DNA from: a bacterium
GTDB taxonomy: Bacteria; B130-G9
Direction: 5' to 3'
Assembly (NCBI GenBank): GCA_021160245.1
Contig: JAGHCW010000017.1
Span: 1 to 20,729, forward strand
Length of the DNA: 20,729 nt
Both the position numbers and the translations under genes were made by a program. The notes beneath the pieces were generated by a model. The model did not search any database, was not told where the DNA came from, and was given only the letters and a program-made list of their open reading frames with translations. Positions 11,395 through 20,729 of the stretch are shown here, piece after piece. Every line of letters starts with the position of its first letter. Positions within the stretch are counted from its first letter, which is position 1.

Positions 11395-13179
11395 CTAGTC
11401 CCCTGCCGTAGCGAACGCTATTTCCTCAAGCGTCGTCACGCCCTCCTTGATTCTCTCCCGACCAGACGCCCGAAGGGACAGCATCCCATCTGAAGTTGCC
11501 TGCTGACGCAGCGCGTCCTCGTCAATATCCTGCGAGGCCTTGTAGATCATCTGCCGTATCTCCTTGCTGAAATAGAGCGCCTCGTGGATTGCCGTCCGAC
11601 CTCTATAACCCAATCGACATTTTTTGCAGCCCACCGGCTCATAAAACGTTATGTCACGAACCTCATCTTCCGTAAATCCAAGTTCAAGAGGAATACTCGG
11701 ATCCATATCCGTTATCTCTCGTTTACATTCAGAGCAAAGCGTCCGAACAAGCCTCTGAGCCACAACGATGCTGATCGAATAGGCAAGCAGAAACGGCTCA
11801 ATTCCCATCTTGTAAAGCCTCGCAACAACACTCACGGCATCGTTCGTATGAAGCGTGGAAAACGTCAAATGCCCCGTGTTCGCAAGCTTGATCGCTATCT
11901 CAGCTGTTATCTTATCTCGCATCTCACCGACCATCACGATGTCCGGGTCATGACGCAATATCGAACGTATCGCCTGATCGAAATCAAGACGTGCGCCAAG
12001 CTTTATCTGCCTTGCGCCTCGTATGTAATACTCGACCGGGTCCTCAACCGTCAGAACGTTCACGCTCGGGTTGAGCACATGGCTCAGCGCCGCAACGAGA
12101 GTTGTGCTCTTACCACTACCTGTCGGGCCAGTTAAAATCACGATCCCTTGAGGCTTGCCAATCGCCCGCAAGAAGTCATCTTTTGCCTTCTTCTGGAAAC
12201 CGAGCTTCTCGAAATCGGTAACTAGCTTCCGATCGTCAATCACCCTGATCACGATACTCTCGAGCTTCCGCCGTATCTCCTCGCCGACAATTGGGAGGAT
12301 GGAAACACGAAACCTGATCAAGTAATTGTCAATATTGCGCTGAATGAAACCGTCCTGAGCAGAATCCCATTCAAAGCGGTCGATGTTTTTGGACCTGTCC
12401 TTGATGACTGCCGATATGGCCTCCGGTTTCGTCCCCTCGTGGCGATACCACAACTGGAGCTTGCCATCGATTCGAAAGTAGAACTCCGTCGTATTCCCCG
12501 CCTTCGGGATAACGTGAATATCACTTGCCCCTTTGCGAACCGCCTCAACGAGACTTCCCTCCACGAGGTTTGTTAGCAGACTTTGGTTGATTTCTGCCTC
12601 AAGCGCCTCCTCGTCAAGCTCAGCATCGCCTTCCTCGACCGTCTCGACAGCCTCACTCGCCTGTTCCACGATCTTCAGGAACTCGTCCTCATGAGGACTG
12701 ATCTTCTCAACGAGCTGCTCAATATCCTCGAGCCGCATATAAGCTATCTCATAACGCTTGAAATTGAATTCAGTGACGAGGCTCTGCACCTCACGATTGG
12801 TCGGATCGGGGCATACAACCACCAAGACTCCATGCTTCTCACGGTGAAGCCTCAGTGGAATCACTCGCTTGTTCAAAAGGTAGCTCCGCATCTCGGAGCT
12901 GATGCTCTCCATCTGGTCGCTTATGAACCTGAGGTTGTCCTCACAGAGGTCCTCCTCAGAGAGCTCCAGTGTCCTGAAAGCGTAGATATTCGCCACTTCC
13001 TTATAGATACTATGCCGATCAATCTTGAAATCTTCGACGAGTATCTCACCTATCTTGCGGCGATTCGCATCAACCTCAGAGGCCTGGACCTGTAGAGCCC
13101 TCTCAAAGGTCTCCTCATCGATCACGCCCCGCTGGACCAGCAGGGCGCCGAACCTGGTCTGTGGAGGTGGCGCGTTCAT
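11395..13179 (-). CDS. pilB: PilB/GspE-family pilus extension ATPase
   Basis: A 594-residue cytoplasmic hexameric ATPase that drives pilus polymerisation. An N-terminal MshEN/GspE-N-like region (1-160, RFGALLVQRGVI onwards) is followed by a Glu-rich linker (166-196) and the ATPase core. The core has GASDIHV (217-223), Walker A GPTGSGKSTT (351-360), Asp box TVEDPVEY (377-384), Walker B IVMVGEMRD (414-422), His box TLHTND (442-447), and a CxxC...CxxC zinc site (Cys482/485 and 518/521), characteristic of PilB/GspE rather than PilT. The frame is open 45 codons further upstream into pilC, but the ATG at 13179 is chosen because it follows the pilC stop by 20 bases and has AAGGA at correct spacing, and because the extra residues are low-complexity and unlike the family. 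Confidence 0.96.
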   Translation of the reverse strand: MNAPPPQTRFGALLVQRGVIDEETFERALQVQASEVDANRRKIGEILVEDFKIDRHSIYKEVANIYAFRTLELSEEDLCEDNLRFISDQMESISSEMRSYLLNKRVIPLRLHREKHGVLVVVCPDPTNREVQSLVTEFNFKRYEIAYMRLEDIEQLVEKISPHEDEFLKIVEQASEAVETVEEGDAELDEEALEAEINQSLLTNLVEGSLVEAVRKGASDIHVIPKAGNTTEFYFRIDGKLQLWYRHEGTKPEAISAVIKDRSKNIDRFEWDSAQDGFIQRNIDNYLIRFRVSILPIVGEEIRRKLESIVIRVIDDRKLVTDFEKLGFQKKAKDDFLRAIGKPQGIVILTGPTGSGKSTTLVAALSHVLNPSVNVLTVEDPVEYYIRGARQIKLGARLDFDQAIRSILRHDPDIVMVGEMRDKITAEIAIKLANTGHLTFSTLHTNDAVSVVARLYKMGIEPFLLAYSISIVVAQRLVRTLCSECKREITDMDPSIPLELGFTEDEVRDITFYEPVGCKKCRLGYRGRTAIHEALYFSKEIRQMIYKASQDIDEDALRQQATSDGMLSLRASGRERIKEGVTTLEEIAFATAGD

Positions 13180-13199
13180 AATCCTGTTCCTTTGCCTCT

Positions 13200-14549
13200 C
13201 TATTTGACTGTAACGCCCGGCATCGTTGGCTTCATTATTGCTGTCTCGGATGAAACCACCGTTATGCCCGTCATCACGATGAGCACGAAAAATGCTATGA
13301 AGACCTGGACCCAATCGATGATCGCTTTCATCTTGTAGGTCGTCTCCTTCTCATAGTAGTTCGCAACTTGCAGAGCCGTCTTTCTCAGTGTTCCCGTCTC
13401 CGCCCCACCGCGAAGCCTATTCAGAGCGTTCTCTGTGAAGACGCCGGTTCTCTCCAATGACTCCACGAGGCCCTTGCCCTCTTTGATCATCATCGGGATT
13501 GCTATCTCCTTGATCTGACGCTCCATGTAGCGGTTTCGACATGCCTCCGCCGAGGTCCGTATCACCTCGATGTTCTCGCCCGAGCCAGAGTAAAGCGCTG
13601 TGAATACCCGACAGAAAATCTCGATGCTCGTCTTATGCAAAAGCGAGCCGATGATCGGCAGCCTTATGATGTACTTGTCTATTAGGAAGCGGCCTTTGTT
13701 CGTGAATGCTAACTTCAATGCGACCGCTATTGGCACGAACGTGCCGATAAGAAGAAGAATTATATTGTCCCTAAGGAAGTAGCTTACATCAAGTGTAAAC
13801 CTAGTCATCGGTGGTAACTTCATGTCAAACTTAAGGAACATCTCCGCCGTCTCAGGAAATATATAACCGACGTAAAATAGTACTGCACAAAGAAGCAAAA
13901 ACACGGTAACGCAGGGCATGATGAGGGCGCTTCTCAAACTCTTCTTGAAGGCCTGATTCCGCTCGAGGAATTTGGCCGTGCTCTCATAGATTTCAACCAT
14001 GTTACCGCTCTGGGCTGCCACACCCAGCATGTGCGCTGGGAACCGGCCCAGGGCATCTTCCTGCTTCCCGAAGACCTCCTTACCCTCTCTCCCCTCTTTC
14101 AGGTCGCTACTTATCTCCTTAATCGCCTCTCGTAGCGTTCTGTTTTGAATGTCATTTCCTAAGAGCTCCAGCACCTCGTCATACGGCAGCTTCTCGCGAA
14201 GAAGATCGGCGCCGAGCCTGATGAACATGACGACGTCGCTGGAAGGCGGACTCATGCGAAAGTCCAGTGGCTTGCGACGGACGGAGAGGACCTTGTACCC
14301 GATGGCCCGCAATGCCCGGCTTAGTTCCTCCTGCGAGTAGGCCTTCCGCTCCCCGCGAACGGCCCGCTCATTGCCCTTACTCACCTTGTAAACGTACGTT
14401 CGCTTTTTCTCAAGGGAGTTGAGGTTGAACCGTCTGACACGCATCAGCTCCGTGAGCTTCAGCATCGCCGACTTCTTGTTCTTGGCCGTCAATAGCCCCT
14501 GAATCGGGCGACCCGCTGAGTTCATTCCATGATATCTGTATTCTGCCAT
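13200..14549 (-). CDS. pilC: PilC/GspF-family inner-membrane platform protein
   Basis: A 449-residue polytopic membrane protein that couples the ATPases to pilin assembly. An N-terminal cytoplasmic segment (1-55) has the usual YxGxNxAGRxxxG start. A second short alpha/beta piece (65-95) seems to repeat its tail. Two GspF domains follow (about 100-230 and 305-435). Membrane helices are visible at about 206-231, 262-283 and 414-433. The GGAETGTLRKTAL motif (381-393) in the second domain is the family's G-E-x-G signature. In the first domain the matching site reads AAQSGNMVEIYES (178-190), where Glu is replaced by Gln-Ser. The ATG at 14549 has AGGGA upstream. It is the first gene downstream of the pilin terminator, and its stop lies just before pilB. 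Confidence 0.95.
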   Translation of the reverse strand: MAEYRYHGMNSAGRPIQGLLTAKNKKSAMLKLTELMRVRRFNLNSLEKKRTYVYKVSKGNERAVRGERKAYSQEELSRALRAIGYKVLSVRRKPLDFRMSPPSSDVVMFIRLGADLLREKLPYDEVLELLGNDIQNRTLREAIKEISSDLKEGREGKEVFGKQEDALGRFPAHMLGVAAQSGNMVEIYESTAKFLERNQAFKKSLRSALIMPCVTVFLLLCAVLFYVGYIFPETAEMFLKFDMKLPPMTRFTLDVSYFLRDNIILLLIGTFVPIAVALKLAFTNKGRFLIDKYIIRLPIIGSLLHKTSIEIFCRVFTALYSGSGENIEVIRTSAEACRNRYMERQIKEIAIPMMIKEGKGLVESLERTGVFTENALNRLRGGAETGTLRKTALQVANYYEKETTYKMKAIIDWVQVFIAFFVLIVMTGITVVSSETAIMKPTMPGVTVK

Positions 14550-16271: not shown

Positions 16272-17639
16272 TCACCGGTCATTCTGGGTATCCGGCCCGA
16301 TGCCGTGTCGCTCGATCTTCCGATATAACGCTTGCCGCGTGAGGCCTAAAAGCTTTGCCGCCTTTGCTATGTTGAATGCAGAGAGTTGAAGCGCTCGCTC
16401 CACATGCTCGCGCTCAATATCGGCCAGTTTTAGAAACCTCTTGGATGCTGCCAATGTCTTGTCTCTCATTGCTTTGGGCAGGTCCTTGGGCAGGACAGCG
16501 GGGCCATTGGAGAAGATGATGCCGTGCTCAATGGCGTGCTTCAGCTCGCGAACGTTGCCGGGCCACTCGTAGCTCATCATCAACTCGTGCGCCCGTGGCG
16601 AGAGCTGCTTTTGAGCTGAGCCGTGCGTTTTGCAGTGTTGAATGAGAAAGTACTCGGCCAAGAGAGGTAGATCGGCGCGACGTTTCCTAAGCGGCGGCAA
16701 AGTGATGATCGCTGAGATGAGTCTGTAATAGAGGTCCTTTCTGAAGGTCCCCGATTCTACTCTACTCTCGAGGTCTTCGTTGCTTGCCGCGAAGACCCTG
16801 ACGTCAACCTTCTGAGGTGTGGAGCTCCCGATCGGACGGACTTCCTTGCTATCTAGGACCCGCAATAGCGCGATCTGAGTGCTCTCGTGCGCCGCCTCGA
16901 TCTCATCCAGGAGAATAGAGCCGCCCGAGGCAGCGGCAAACAGACCCATTTTGCTTGAAGACGCGCCCGTAAATGAGCCCTTTGTGTGTCCGAAGAGCTC
17001 GCTTTCTAAGAGCGATTCGGGGAGACTCCCGAAATTGACCGCAATGAACGGCGCATCCTTTCGCTTGCCGGTGTTATGGATAGCCTTTGCAGTCAGCTCC
17101 TTGCCAGTTCCGGTCTCTCCGAGCAACAGCACGGTCGAATCGGTCTTCGCAAGATGCCGAATCCGCTGATAGACCATTTGCATCTCGGAACTCGCCCCAA
17201 TCAGCTGTTCAAATTGGTCTTTCTTGCTCACCGAGGCCGCGAGCTGCTCGATCTTGGCCGCCATCCTCGCCTTCTCAACGGCTCGCCTGGCAACCATCAC
17301 GACGCGGTCTATCGACGCAAAAGGCTTCGTTAGAAAATCGTATGCGCCCTGCCTCATCGCCAGAACGCTCATCGGGATATCTGCGAAGGCGGAGATCACT
17401 ATGATTTGTGTATGCTCACTAAGAGCGGTCGCCCGGCGCTGGAGCTCCAGACCGTCCATCCCAGCCATCCGCACGTCAGTTATGACGAGGTCATATTCCG
17501 TTGACGACAAACTAACCAGCGCCTCCTCGCCGCTGACTGCGACATCGACGTTGAAGCCCCCGTCAGAGAGCACTTCCTCAAGAACGGAGCGAATGTCCGC
17601 ATCGTCGTCAACGACGAGCACTCTTCCTTCGTCGGGCAC
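16272..17639 (-). CDS. NtrC-family sigma-54-dependent response regulator (PilR/AtoC-like)
   Basis: A 455-residue transcription activator. The receiver domain (1-125) has Asp11/Asp12, phospho-acceptor Asp55 in LVITDVRM and Lys105 in FLTKPF. The AAA+ domain (143-380) has Walker A GETGTGKE (174-181), the sigma-54-contacting loop GSFTGA (221-226, Ser for the usual Ala), Walker B ILLDEI (242-247) and the arginine-finger region FRKDLYYRL (299-307). The Fis-type helix-turn-helix lies at 410-445 (AAKLLGLTRQALYRKIERHGI). All catalytic residues are intact. The start is GTG at 17639 with GGGAGG seven bases upstream. It is oriented like the pilus genes and is separated from the pseudo-receiver by 249 bases without a clear gene. 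A PilR-like role is a guess from position. No partner kinase is in the window. Confidence 0.93.
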   Translation of the reverse strand: MPDEGRVLVVDDDADIRSVLEEVLSDGGFNVDVAVSGEEALVSLSSTEYDLVITDVRMAGMDGLELQRRATALSEHTQIIVISAFADIPMSVLAMRQGAYDFLTKPFASIDRVVMVARRAVEKARMAAKIEQLAASVSKKDQFEQLIGASSEMQMVYQRIRHLAKTDSTVLLLGETGTGKELTAKAIHNTGKRKDAPFIAVNFGSLPESLLESELFGHTKGSFTGASSSKMGLFAAASGGSILLDEIEAAHESTQIALLRVLDSKEVRPIGSSTPQKVDVRVFAASNEDLESRVESGTFRKDLYYRLISAIITLPPLRKRRADLPLLAEYFLIQHCKTHGSAQKQLSPRAHELMMSYEWPGNVRELKHAIEHGIIFSNGPAVLPKDLPKAMRDKTLAASKRFLKLADIEREHVERALQLSAFNIAKAAKLLGLTRQALYRKIERHGIGPDTQNDR

Positions 17640-17879: not shown

Positions 17880-20204
17880 ATGTTGACGAAAGGCACGATA
17901 ATCCTATCAATCGCATTTGCCCTGTTTATCAGCGCAGCAAGCGTCCAGGCCGAGGAGCGCTACGCACTGCTCGTTGGCATTAACAAGTACAACTCCAGCC
18001 GCATAAGCGAGCTCAAAGGGGCCGTCGATGATGTGGTAAGCGTAGGCGTGGCCCTGACCCAATACTGTGACTTTGATAAAGACAATGTCTATTATCTAAC
18101 GAGCGACCGAGACCCAGACCATCAGCCCTACAAGACGAAGATCGTCTCAATACTCGATTACCTCGCCGACATCATCAAGCCGGAGGACGCGTTCATCTTC
18201 TACTTCTCAGGCCACGGCGTCACACAGAATAACGGGCAATTCCTTCTAACGCAGAATGCCGACATTAGCTCCGAAAGCTGCGTCAAGATGAGCTGCCTCG
18301 CGCTCGGCGATCTCCACTCGATGCTCGACCGCATCCGCGCCTCGAAAAAGGTCATAATCGTTGACGCCTGCCGTAACCAATCGGTGCTTGCGGCAAAGGG
18401 CGACAAAGAGGGAACGAAGCTCTCCGCGGAATTTAGCAAAGGCTTGACAATGAGACCCAAGTCCGGCGGCGGTGACATCAGTTTCTCGGCCGTCCTTTAC
18501 GCATGTAAACCCAATCACGTCGCCTACGAGTACCCCGGTAAGAAGCGGGGCTTTTTCTCGTTCTTTCTGACCCAAGCGCTTCAAGGCGCCGCCGAGGCGC
18601 TCAATAAGAACGGGGACCTGACACTAGGGAGTATTGACGCTTATCTTGAAACAAGCGTTAACGCGGCGGTCAAGAGAGAGTTTAGAGGAGAGGCTGAACA
18701 GAGACCCTGGATTGACCGCAAAGGCTCCGGCTTCAGCACCTGGCGCCTCGCCCACTTCAAGCCGGGACGGGCGGGTATAGGACGGCCTTTCCAGGCTGTC
18801 CCTGGGCCTGTCCCCGTGTCTGTTGGCGGCAATAATCAACCCATCCTCAAACCCTACGAGCCCGCCGCGACTCAGCAAGACGTCTATGTCCCACAGATGC
18901 CCTCCGTTGGCAGCAACCCGCCGAAGATCGACTTCATGAAGAAACCGCCCTCCAGCGTGAGTCGGCTCGAGGCGAAGCGGGGCCTTGAGTTTCGGTTCAA
19001 GTCCGAAACGCAAGCGGGCATCGCCCGATACGATTATCGGCTGGACAATGAGGGCATCAAGAGCACGCAGCGGATCAATTTGAGGCTCAACGGTCTCTCA
19101 TCTGGTACGCACAAGCTTCAGGTTCAGGCTGTGGACATCAATGGCTCCAAGTCGAAGCCCGCCATACACCAGTTCACGATTCGGGGCAACGAGCGGCCAA
19201 CCGTTCGCTTCGTTACGCCGGCGACGAGCGGCTCAAAGGTCAGGGCGAAGTCGCTGAAGGTGAAGCTCACCGGGAAGGACACGGATGGCAAGATTGCGAA
19301 ATACCGGTGTGCCTTAGGCAACGCCAGGAACGCGAAGGCCTCGAATAGCGGCGAGTTTGAGTTCCAGTCGGCTGATGGAAATCAGAGGCTTTTTGCTCAG
19401 GCTGAGGACGACGAGGGGGCCTTATCGGATTGGGAGGAGCTCGATGTTGTTTATGAGTATGCGACTGAGCCCTCGCCTGGGGATGAGCGGACGTTTGACG
19501 GCATCGCGTTCGTTTGGATTCCGGCGGGTGATTTCATGATGGGCTCGCCGTCATCGGAGAAGAATCGTGACGATGACGAGGGGCCGGTTCACCGGGTTCG
19601 GATCAGCAAGGGTTTTTGGCTGGGGAAGTATGAGATAACTAACGCGCAATATCGGCGGTTCAAGTCAGGTCACGATAGCGGGGATTACAAGGGTCATGGT
19701 CTGAATGGCGGTAATCAGCCGGTGGTGAATGTTAGTTGGGATGACGCGAAGGGTTATACGGAGTGGCTTTCTCGGCGAAGTGGTGGGAAGTATCGTTTGC
19801 CTACGGAGGCTGAGTGGGAGTATGCTTGTCGAGTTGGGACGCCGACGCGGTTTTATACTGGCGATGCTGACTCGGACCTGGGACGGGCAGGATGGTATGG
19901 AAGTAATTCGGGCGGCAAGACTCATGCAGTAGGTCAGAAGGCGGCGAATGGTTGGGGCCTGTATGATATGCGTGGTAATGTATGGGAGTGGTGTTCAGAT
20001 TGGTATGGCAAGGGTTATTATGGTAGCAGTCCAGGTGTTGATCCTACGGGGCCTGGTAGTGGCTCGGGGCGCGTGGGGCGTGGCGGCAGCTGGGGCGGCA
20101 ACCCGGGGTTCTGCCGGTCGGCTTATCGCTACAGGTTTGCCCCGACGAGCCGGAACTACGACCTCGGCTTTCGTGTTGTCGCAGTTCGGCGGTTGGATGA
20201 TTGA
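17880..20204 (+). CDS. Secreted caspase-like protease with C-terminal FGE/C-type-lectin domain; likely DGR variable protein
   Basis: A 774-residue exported protein. Signal peptide 1-24 (cleavage after VQA). Peptidase C14-type caspase domain 26-290 with catalytic His112 in FYFSGHGV and Cys164 in VDACRNQ. Low-complexity linker 295-350. Two Ig-like beta segments, 350-436 and 438-527, the second opening PTVRFVTPA. FGE-sulfatase/C-type-lectin domain 538-770: FVWIPAGDFMMGS, YEITNAQYRRF, RLPTEAEWEYACR, GLYDMRGNVWEWCSDW, and RGGSW...LGFRVV at the end. The first FGE active-site cysteine position is Gly740, so oxidase activity is unlikely and a binding role is expected. Such lectin-fold domains are common DGR targets, and residues 739-761 show the DGR pattern. 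ATG at 17880 with GGAGA five bases upstream; strong promoter at 17806. Codon use shifts to T-ending codons around 19600-20060, then returns to C-ending ones in the variable region. Confidence 0.93.
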   Translation: MLTKGTIILSIAFALFISAASVQAEERYALLVGINKYNSSRISELKGAVDDVVSVGVALTQYCDFDKDNVYYLTSDRDPDHQPYKTKIVSILDYLADIIKPEDAFIFYFSGHGVTQNNGQFLLTQNADISSESCVKMSCLALGDLHSMLDRIRASKKVIIVDACRNQSVLAAKGDKEGTKLSAEFSKGLTMRPKSGGGDISFSAVLYACKPNHVAYEYPGKKRGFFSFFLTQALQGAAEALNKNGDLTLGSIDAYLETSVNAAVKREFRGEAEQRPWIDRKGSGFSTWRLAHFKPGRAGIGRPFQAVPGPVPVSVGGNNQPILKPYEPAATQQDVYVPQMPSVGSNPPKIDFMKKPPSSVSRLEAKRGLEFRFKSETQAGIARYDYRLDNEGIKSTQRINLRLNGLSSGTHKLQVQAVDINGSKSKPAIHQFTIRGNERPTVRFVTPATSGSKVRAKSLKVKLTGKDTDGKIAKYRCALGNARNAKASNSGEFEFQSADGNQRLFAQAEDDEGALSDWEELDVVYEYATEPSPGDERTFDGIAFVWIPAGDFMMGSPSSEKNRDDDEGPVHRVRISKGFWLGKYEITNAQYRRFKSGHDSGDYKGHGLNGGNQPVVNVSWDDAKGYTEWLSRRSGGKYRLPTEAEWEYACRVGTPTRFYTGDADSDLGRAGWYGSNSGGKTHAVGQKAANGWGLYDMRGNVWEWCSDWYGKGYYGSSPGVDPTGPGSGSGRVGRGGSWGGNPGFCRSAYRYRFAPTSRNYDLGFRVVAVRRLDD
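20070..20185 (+). other. Putative DGR variable region (VR)
   Basis: The 3' end of the caspase-FGE gene. Fixed codons (Trp738, Pro742, Arg746-Ser747-Ala748, Arg750, Arg752, Pro755, Arg758, Leu762-Gly763-Phe764) alternate with codons that adenine mutagenesis of Asn-type template codons could produce: GGC, GGC, AAC at 739-741, TTC at 744, TAT at 749, TAC at 751, TTT at 753, AGC at 757, and AAC, TAC, GAC at 759-761. The end near LGFRVV is where template and variable copies normally stay identical (initiation site). The boundaries are estimates. No template repeat is in the window, so the pairing is inferred. Confidence 0.72.
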
Positions 20205-20257
20205 GCGGAGGTCGGAGGTTGGGCGCGACGTGGTGAGCGGAGAGAACCCGAGCGGAG
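20203..20257 (+). repeat. Three GAGCGGAG direct repeats after the variable gene
   Basis: GAGCGGAG occurs at 20203-20210 (overlapping the stop codon), 20235-20242 and 20250-20257. The last copy can also pair through GAGCGG (20250-20255) with CCGCTC (20265-20270). The surrounding 150 bases up to the next gene are G/C-rich and hold no gene. The role is unknown. Confidence 0.45.
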
Positions 20258-20306
20258 CGAGAGGCCGCTCATCCTCCGCGCCGGAGCGAGTGTGCAGGAG
20301 GAACTA

Positions 20307-20341
20307 GGGGTTTCAAGGGGATTTATCCCCTTGATCGCCCC
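20307..20341 (+). repeat. Strong hairpin between the variable gene and the HRDC-type gene
   Basis: CAAGGGGAT and ATCCCCTTG (20314-20322 and 20325-20333) form a perfect nine-base inverted repeat with a two-base centre. An outer GGGG (20307-20310) and CCCC (20338-20341) extend it. There is no T-run, so termination is unlikely. DGRs often carry a hairpin or cruciform downstream of the variable region that helps target recognition. This one is about 130 bases away, further than in the well-studied phage case. It also lies between the AGGAGG at 20296-20301 and the next ATG. Confidence 0.6.
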
Positions 20342-20353
20342 AAAAATCAAAAA

Positions 20354-20729
20354 ATGCAATATCGTGTATTCGCCATCCCAGCGACGGGTTCGGAGGACCT
20401 CGAAGAAGAGTTAAACCGGTTCTTGCGGTCGCATAAGATCGTCTCGGTGCAAAAGACGGTTGAATTGGTGGACCGTGCGCCGCGCTGGTGTTTCTGCGTG
20501 GAATATCTTGAGGGCGTTCGATCCTCTGGGCGATCAAAGCGGATTGACTACAAGGAAGTCCTTTCGGAGAAGGACTTCGCGGTGTTTGCGCGCCTCCGCG
20601 ACGCGCGCAAGGCGCTGGGGGAGGCGGAGGCCGTCCCGGTGTATGCCGTATGCACGAACGAGCAGCTGGCGGCAATGGCGACGAGGCGACCCAAATCGCT
20701 GTCGGCCCTGAAGGAAATCGACGGCCTGG
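20354..20729 (+). CDS. HRDC-domain DGR accessory protein, 3'-truncated by the window edge
   Basis: The plus-strand frame from ATG 20354 stays open to the right edge (125 complete codons). Residues 1-80 form a family-typical N-terminal part (MQYRVFAIPATG, LNRFLRSHKIVSV, WCFCVEYLEG, RIDYKEVLSEKDFAVFARLR). Residues 82-125 are the beginning of an HRDC nucleic-acid-binding domain: KALGEAEAVPVYAVCTNEQL, AMATRRPKSLSALKEIDGL. I recall this protein type next to reverse transcriptases in diversity-generating retroelements, where it takes the place of the Avd accessory protein. No ribosome site is adjacent to the ATG. The only AGGAGG is 52 bases upstream, beyond a hairpin. The frame is also open upstream to 20237 but without another ATG. 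The remaining HRDC residues, the template repeat and the reverse transcriptase should follow outside the window. Confidence 0.85.
   Translation, partial: MQYRVFAIPATGSEDLEEELNRFLRSHKIVSVQKTVELVDRAPRWCFCVEYLEGVRSSGRSKRIDYKEVLSEKDFAVFARLRDARKALGEAEAVPVYAVCTNEQLAAMATRRPKSLSALKEIDGL

Follow-up and report, generated by a model that had tools for sequence, protein, structure and literature searches.

The window, a stretch of 20,729 nucleotides (nt) that is the whole of contig C165 in a 3.43-Mb draft genome (244 contigs, 94.8% complete), ends in two rightward genes on the (+) strand, the first encoding a caspase-FGE protein and the second a protein with an HRDC domain (Table 1). The sequence stops inside the HRDC gene, and no other contig in this assembly overlaps the right end of the window (position 20729). 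That these two genes follow each other on one strand, and that they belong to a diversity-generating retroelement (DGR) truncated by the contig end, had been proposed in a first-pass annotation; the gene order was borne out, and the contig does end within the second gene. To the left of the pair, the (-) strand genes between 11395 and 17639 include one for a sigma-54 response regulator (16272-17639) and others for parts of a type II secretion or type IV pilus system (T2SSE, 11395-13314; T2SSF, 13200-14549).

Table 1. Features at the right end of the window. L066 is the DGR locus of a Ca. Hydrogenedentota MAG; VR, variable repeat; TR, template repeat.
Feature	Position	Strand	Remarks
Caspase-FGE target (variable) protein, putative	17880..20204	+	774 aa
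Caspase (Peptidase_C14) domain, aa 27-280	17958..18719	+	Pfam PF00656, 74.7 bits
FGE-sulfatase (C-type-lectin-like) domain, aa 544-767	19509..20180	+	184.5 bits
VR, putative	20061..20187	+	bounds from ungapped alignment to L066 TR
VR 3' end, IMH-like constant stretch CTCGGCTTTCGTGTTGTCGCAGTTC	20163..20187	+	23/25 bases as in L066 VR and TR
Imperfect inverted repeat enclosing conserved element	20213..20278	+	arms 20213-20225, 20266-20278
Conserved noncoding element GTGAGCGGAGAGAACCCGAGCGGAGCGAGAG, 31 bases	20233..20263	+	one mismatch to L066, same place behind VR
HRDC accessory protein, putative, cut by contig end	20354..20729 (frame 20354-20728)	+	125 of ~160 aa

Judged by eye, the caspase-FGE protein starts with a signal-peptide-like (Sec) sequence, MLTKGTIILSIAFALFISAASVQA-EE, and its caspase domain has kept both the His motif SGHG (H112) and the Cys motif DACRN (C164). 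Because these motifs are intact and the start resembles a signal peptide, our guess is that the protein would most likely act as an exported or envelope-bound sensor-protease binding varying surface or phage ligands. The FGE domain is of the C-type-lectin-like type found in DGR targets, and its top solved-structure match by sequence was TvpA, the variable protein of a Treponema denticola DGR (PDB 2y3c). The first-pass annotation listed FGE and C-type-lectin domains as major DGR targets. FGE targets of putative conflict systems have been published (PMC10907252, PMC7159879).

The HRDC domain beside this target (48 bits, model positions 2 to 52 of 68) was matched in nine genomes besides its own out of 145 searched, several of the matches being long proteins of RecQ size. 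The first-pass annotation had assigned the protein to a DGR accessory class. Ten standalone homologues (26 to 72% identical) adjoin a DGR-type reverse transcriptase (RT) with the motifs YMDD and (I/V)G(N/S)LTSQ, and at eight of these ten loci all or nearly all VR/TR mismatches fall on template adenines. The two closest relatives, one in a Ca. Hydrogenedentota MAG (L066; HRDC 72% identical, 17/17 mismatches at template adenines) and the other in a Ca. Wallbacteria MAG (L067; 68% identical, 20/20), share the order FGE target-HRDC-RT-TR, with the HRDC gene overlapping the RT gene by 26 bases and the TR overlapping the RT end by 16. At a locus in genome G028 (L034/L068), the HRDC gene (54% identical) is flanked by the end of an FGE gene and by an RT that has both IGNLTSQ and YMDD, and the TR comes next; here VR and TR differ at 15/128 bases, all 15 on template adenines. 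The corresponding counts are 17/17 and 20/21 at L069 (HRDC 49% identical), 24/26 at L070 (31% identical), 19/19 at L038, 16/17 at L039, and 10/12 and 6/7 at L036, and every locus named so far carries a YMDD RT (L066, L067, L069 and L070 came from a scan of named genomes). DGR-type RTs also adjoin the standalone homologues in genomes G053 (two), G101 and G143 (one each), and all but one of these four loci show an adenine-directed VR/TR pair. A weak homologue (31%) near a contig end, L037, had no RT in view. Among viral contigs, a single distant relative of the HRDC protein was found, L074, and it is accompanied by an RT.

The 3' end of the caspase-FGE gene can be aligned to the L066 TR with no gaps. 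Of the 32 template adenines 21 are changed, and of the 95 other bases 18, an adenine bias with an odds ratio of 8.2 (p = 2e-6) when measured, as here, against a foreign TR; the window's own TR is predicted to lie outside the assembled sequence. With the L067 TR, p was 5e-5. The pattern reported earlier for this gene end is thus real, and the span first given for it (20070-20185) comes close to the aligned one. Since the true VRs of three other DGRs score much the same against the foreign L066 TR (adenine and other differences of 21/32 and 20/95, 17/30 and 17/92, and 20/31 and 22/88), the window VR resembles a true VR. Within this gene, the constant portion of FGE yielded odds ratios of only 1.5 to 1.9, and the other FGE genes of this genome scored below the window VR against the L066 TR (best p = 0.0005). 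None of the TRs seen would allow a perfect adenine-only derivation of the window VR.

We also considered that the gene might be an ordinary FGE paralogue that happens to lie beside an unrelated HRDC gene, its alternating pattern being no different from the RGGSW...GFR motif of the family. FGE proteins are indeed generally conserved at RGGSW, R.A.R and GFR, and several other FGE genes of this genome lean toward differences at template adenines (p between 9e-5 and 0.04, according to which TR served as the reference), the lowest value belonging to a gene on contig C172 (L050), which against the L067 TR comes near the window VR. However, some of these paralogues are themselves probable VRs, and by its sequence L050 may be a further one. 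Moreover, 77 of the 95 non-adenine bases of the L066 template are kept in the window VR, silent sites included, which is more than in most paralogues, and the HRDC family stands beside a DGR RT in 10 of the 11 loci read. Together with the noncoding element that the window shares with the L066 cassette, described below, these observations make a chance neighborhood highly improbable, and the VR pattern as read from the sequence goes beyond the usual FGE motif.

The resemblance of the window to the L066 cassette continues past the coding region. The IMH-like VR 3' end is followed by a noncoding stretch whose alignment between window and L066 scored 85, compared with a maximum of 46 in 500 shuffles, and the conserved element within this stretch is single copy in the genome, with no copies behind the FGE paralogues. 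An inverted repeat is expected at DGR target sites (PMC3240598), and the imperfect one that encloses the conserved element could possibly form a target-site hairpin or cruciform, with the reservation that its computed DNA fold was no better than that of shuffled sequences (z 0.26). Between the VR and the HRDC gene lies, in addition, a palindromic dispersed repeat, GGGTTTCAAGGGGATTTATCCCCTTGA (20308-20334), of which the genome holds four copies.

The contig ends before the place where an RT would be expected. Carrying the L066 and L067 spacing over to the window, we predict an RT at ~20.81 to 21.83 kb and a TR at ~21.82 to 21.95 kb, both within ~1.25 kb past the contig end. In the rest of this 94.8% complete genome, searches with RVT_1, with one DGR RT on its own and with a profile built from eight such RTs detected no DGR RT; the matches were two group II intron fragments. 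The RT fragment on contig C152 was rejected as the missing enzyme on its 213 bits to a group II maturase model, as was that on C96, an interrupted piece similar to the one on C152. A degenerate template pattern matched only the window VR in this genome. The first 50 bases of contig C243 equal positions 20289-20338 of the window; this match falls in the dispersed repeat and the genes on C243 are unrelated, and we ruled that contig out as a continuation. An adenine-rich, template-like remnant was found 76 bases before the end of contig C172 (36660-36717, i.e., L013:19661-19718), and it agrees with the L034 TR at 48 of 60 aligned positions. It was not accepted as the template of the window, since its alignment to each TR contains gaps and it is not the source of the window VR.

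These negative results raise the question of whether the element has decayed, with the target and the HRDC gene left behind, the RT or the TR lost, and the VR once variable but now frozen. In Thiohalocapsa PB-PSB1, degenerate loci that lack the machinery have been reported (PMC10907252). The assembly lacks both a DGR RT and a TR, the remnant on C172 could be counted on the same side, and, since no DGR RT was found in three other genomes of the same family either (none, that is, in any of the four, this one included), loss of the RT is conceivable in this lineage. However, no stop codon interrupts the HRDC frame before the contig end, its product is 72% identical to the HRDC protein of an intact cassette (L066), and, because the contig stops just before the expected RT place, the absence of the RT from it is not evidence of loss. 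We therefore regard decay as improbable, if less so than a chance neighborhood. An assembly gap is the simplest reading of the absent RT and TR. It is common for bins to lack short contigs.

The right end of the window matches the closest cassette in gene order, in VR framework and in both the VR 3' end and the element downstream. On this basis, it is very probably one half, the left, of a chromosomal DGR, with the other half missing from the assembly; this is also the overall reading of the first-pass annotation, which is now supported by the complete DGRs around HRDC relatives, the bias of the VR and the shared element behind it. We infer that an RT and a TR follow beyond the contig end, and present-day activity and the role guessed at above are inferred likewise. 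In that case, the RT, helped by the HRDC protein, would copy a template RNA into cDNA that carries a random base wherever the template has an adenine, and this cDNA would replace the VR, aided by the constant VR 3' end and by the inverted-repeat element behind it. As a result, the ligand-binding face of the FGE (C-type-lectin-like) domain would change residues, with the rest of the caspase-FGE protein remaining fixed.

Among known systems, the L066 DGR (contig JAKQOG010000047.1) is closest to the window in HRDC identity, in the order and spacing of target and HRDC genes, and in VR framework, IMH-like VR end and downstream element; it differs in having its RT and TR assembled and in its target, which is a NACHT-LRR-FGE protein instead of a caspase-FGE protein. 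The T. denticola TvpA DGR likewise combines an FGE-type C-type-lectin variable protein with an HRDC accessory, the gene for which overlaps the RT, but its target lacks a caspase and its accessory gene is located between TR and RT (PMC4891356). On Prosthecochloris aestuarii plasmid pPAES01 (NC_011061.1), another locus with an HRDC homologue is annotated as FGE-HRDC-Avd-RT; the FGE target is followed by HRDC and then RT as in the proposed order, but with an Avd gene between the latter two and an HRDC protein only 25% identical to that of the window. Cyanobacterial orthocaspase variable proteins are also DGR targets with a caspase-like peptidase domain in their N-terminal portion, but they come from Cyanobacteria, and HRDC and FGE are not mentioned in their description (PMC7517822). 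Hence HRDC accessories (PMC4891356, PMC10053308), FGE targets and caspase-like targets are all already known for DGRs. What the locus adds, from an uncultured lineage, is a probable DGR target in which a caspase-like protease, its start resembling a signal peptide, is coupled with a binding domain that is hypervariable. In addition, it illustrates that a DGR cassette cut by assembly can be recognized from one half, by its accessory gene, VR framework and downstream element.

Two further FGE genes of the same genome, L049 (contig C27, ~28974-29630) and L052 (contig C94, ~19942-20688), appear to carry VRs of their own, and the C27 gene is a caspase-FGE paralogue (~80% DNA identity in the caspase domain). 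Between the VRs of C27 and C94 there are 13 differences at first, 10 at second and 2 at third codon positions, whereas the corresponding numbers for the 120 codons upstream of the VRs are 32, 29 and 66 (p = 2e-5). Behind both genes lies a near-identical hairpin, GCGAAGGGTCAAGAAGGGC..GCCCAAGAAGACCCTTCG, also written as GCGAAGGGTCAAGAAGGGC...GCCCAAGAAGACCCTTCGC. The same hairpin follows FGE genes of the three other family genomes, and its core was found, among the 111 loci fetched, only behind such FGE genes; copies of either downstream element were absent from the viral contigs. The VRs on C27 and C94 are likely remote ones that share a single unseen template, distinct from that of the window, and this second set supports past or present DGR action in the lineage, although no DGR RT was found in any of the four family genomes. 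Such probable remote VRs make a trans-acting DGR testable with reads.

A related genome, G002, contains ~30 or more FGE genes (e.g., L083-L101) whose residues between RGGSW and GFR are hypervariable; searches of it for a DGR RT were negative, and the hairpin was present in only one sampled FGE copy. We speculate, without giving the idea much weight, that the family might keep a DGR with multiple targets, acting in trans to rewrite a number of FGE sensors, some of them exported caspase-FGE proteins, and that the FGE expansion in G002 might constitute an anticipatory recognition repertoire. Finally, one of the four copies of the palindromic repeat GGGTTTCAAGGGGATTTATCCCCTTGA is located behind the FGE gene on C94.
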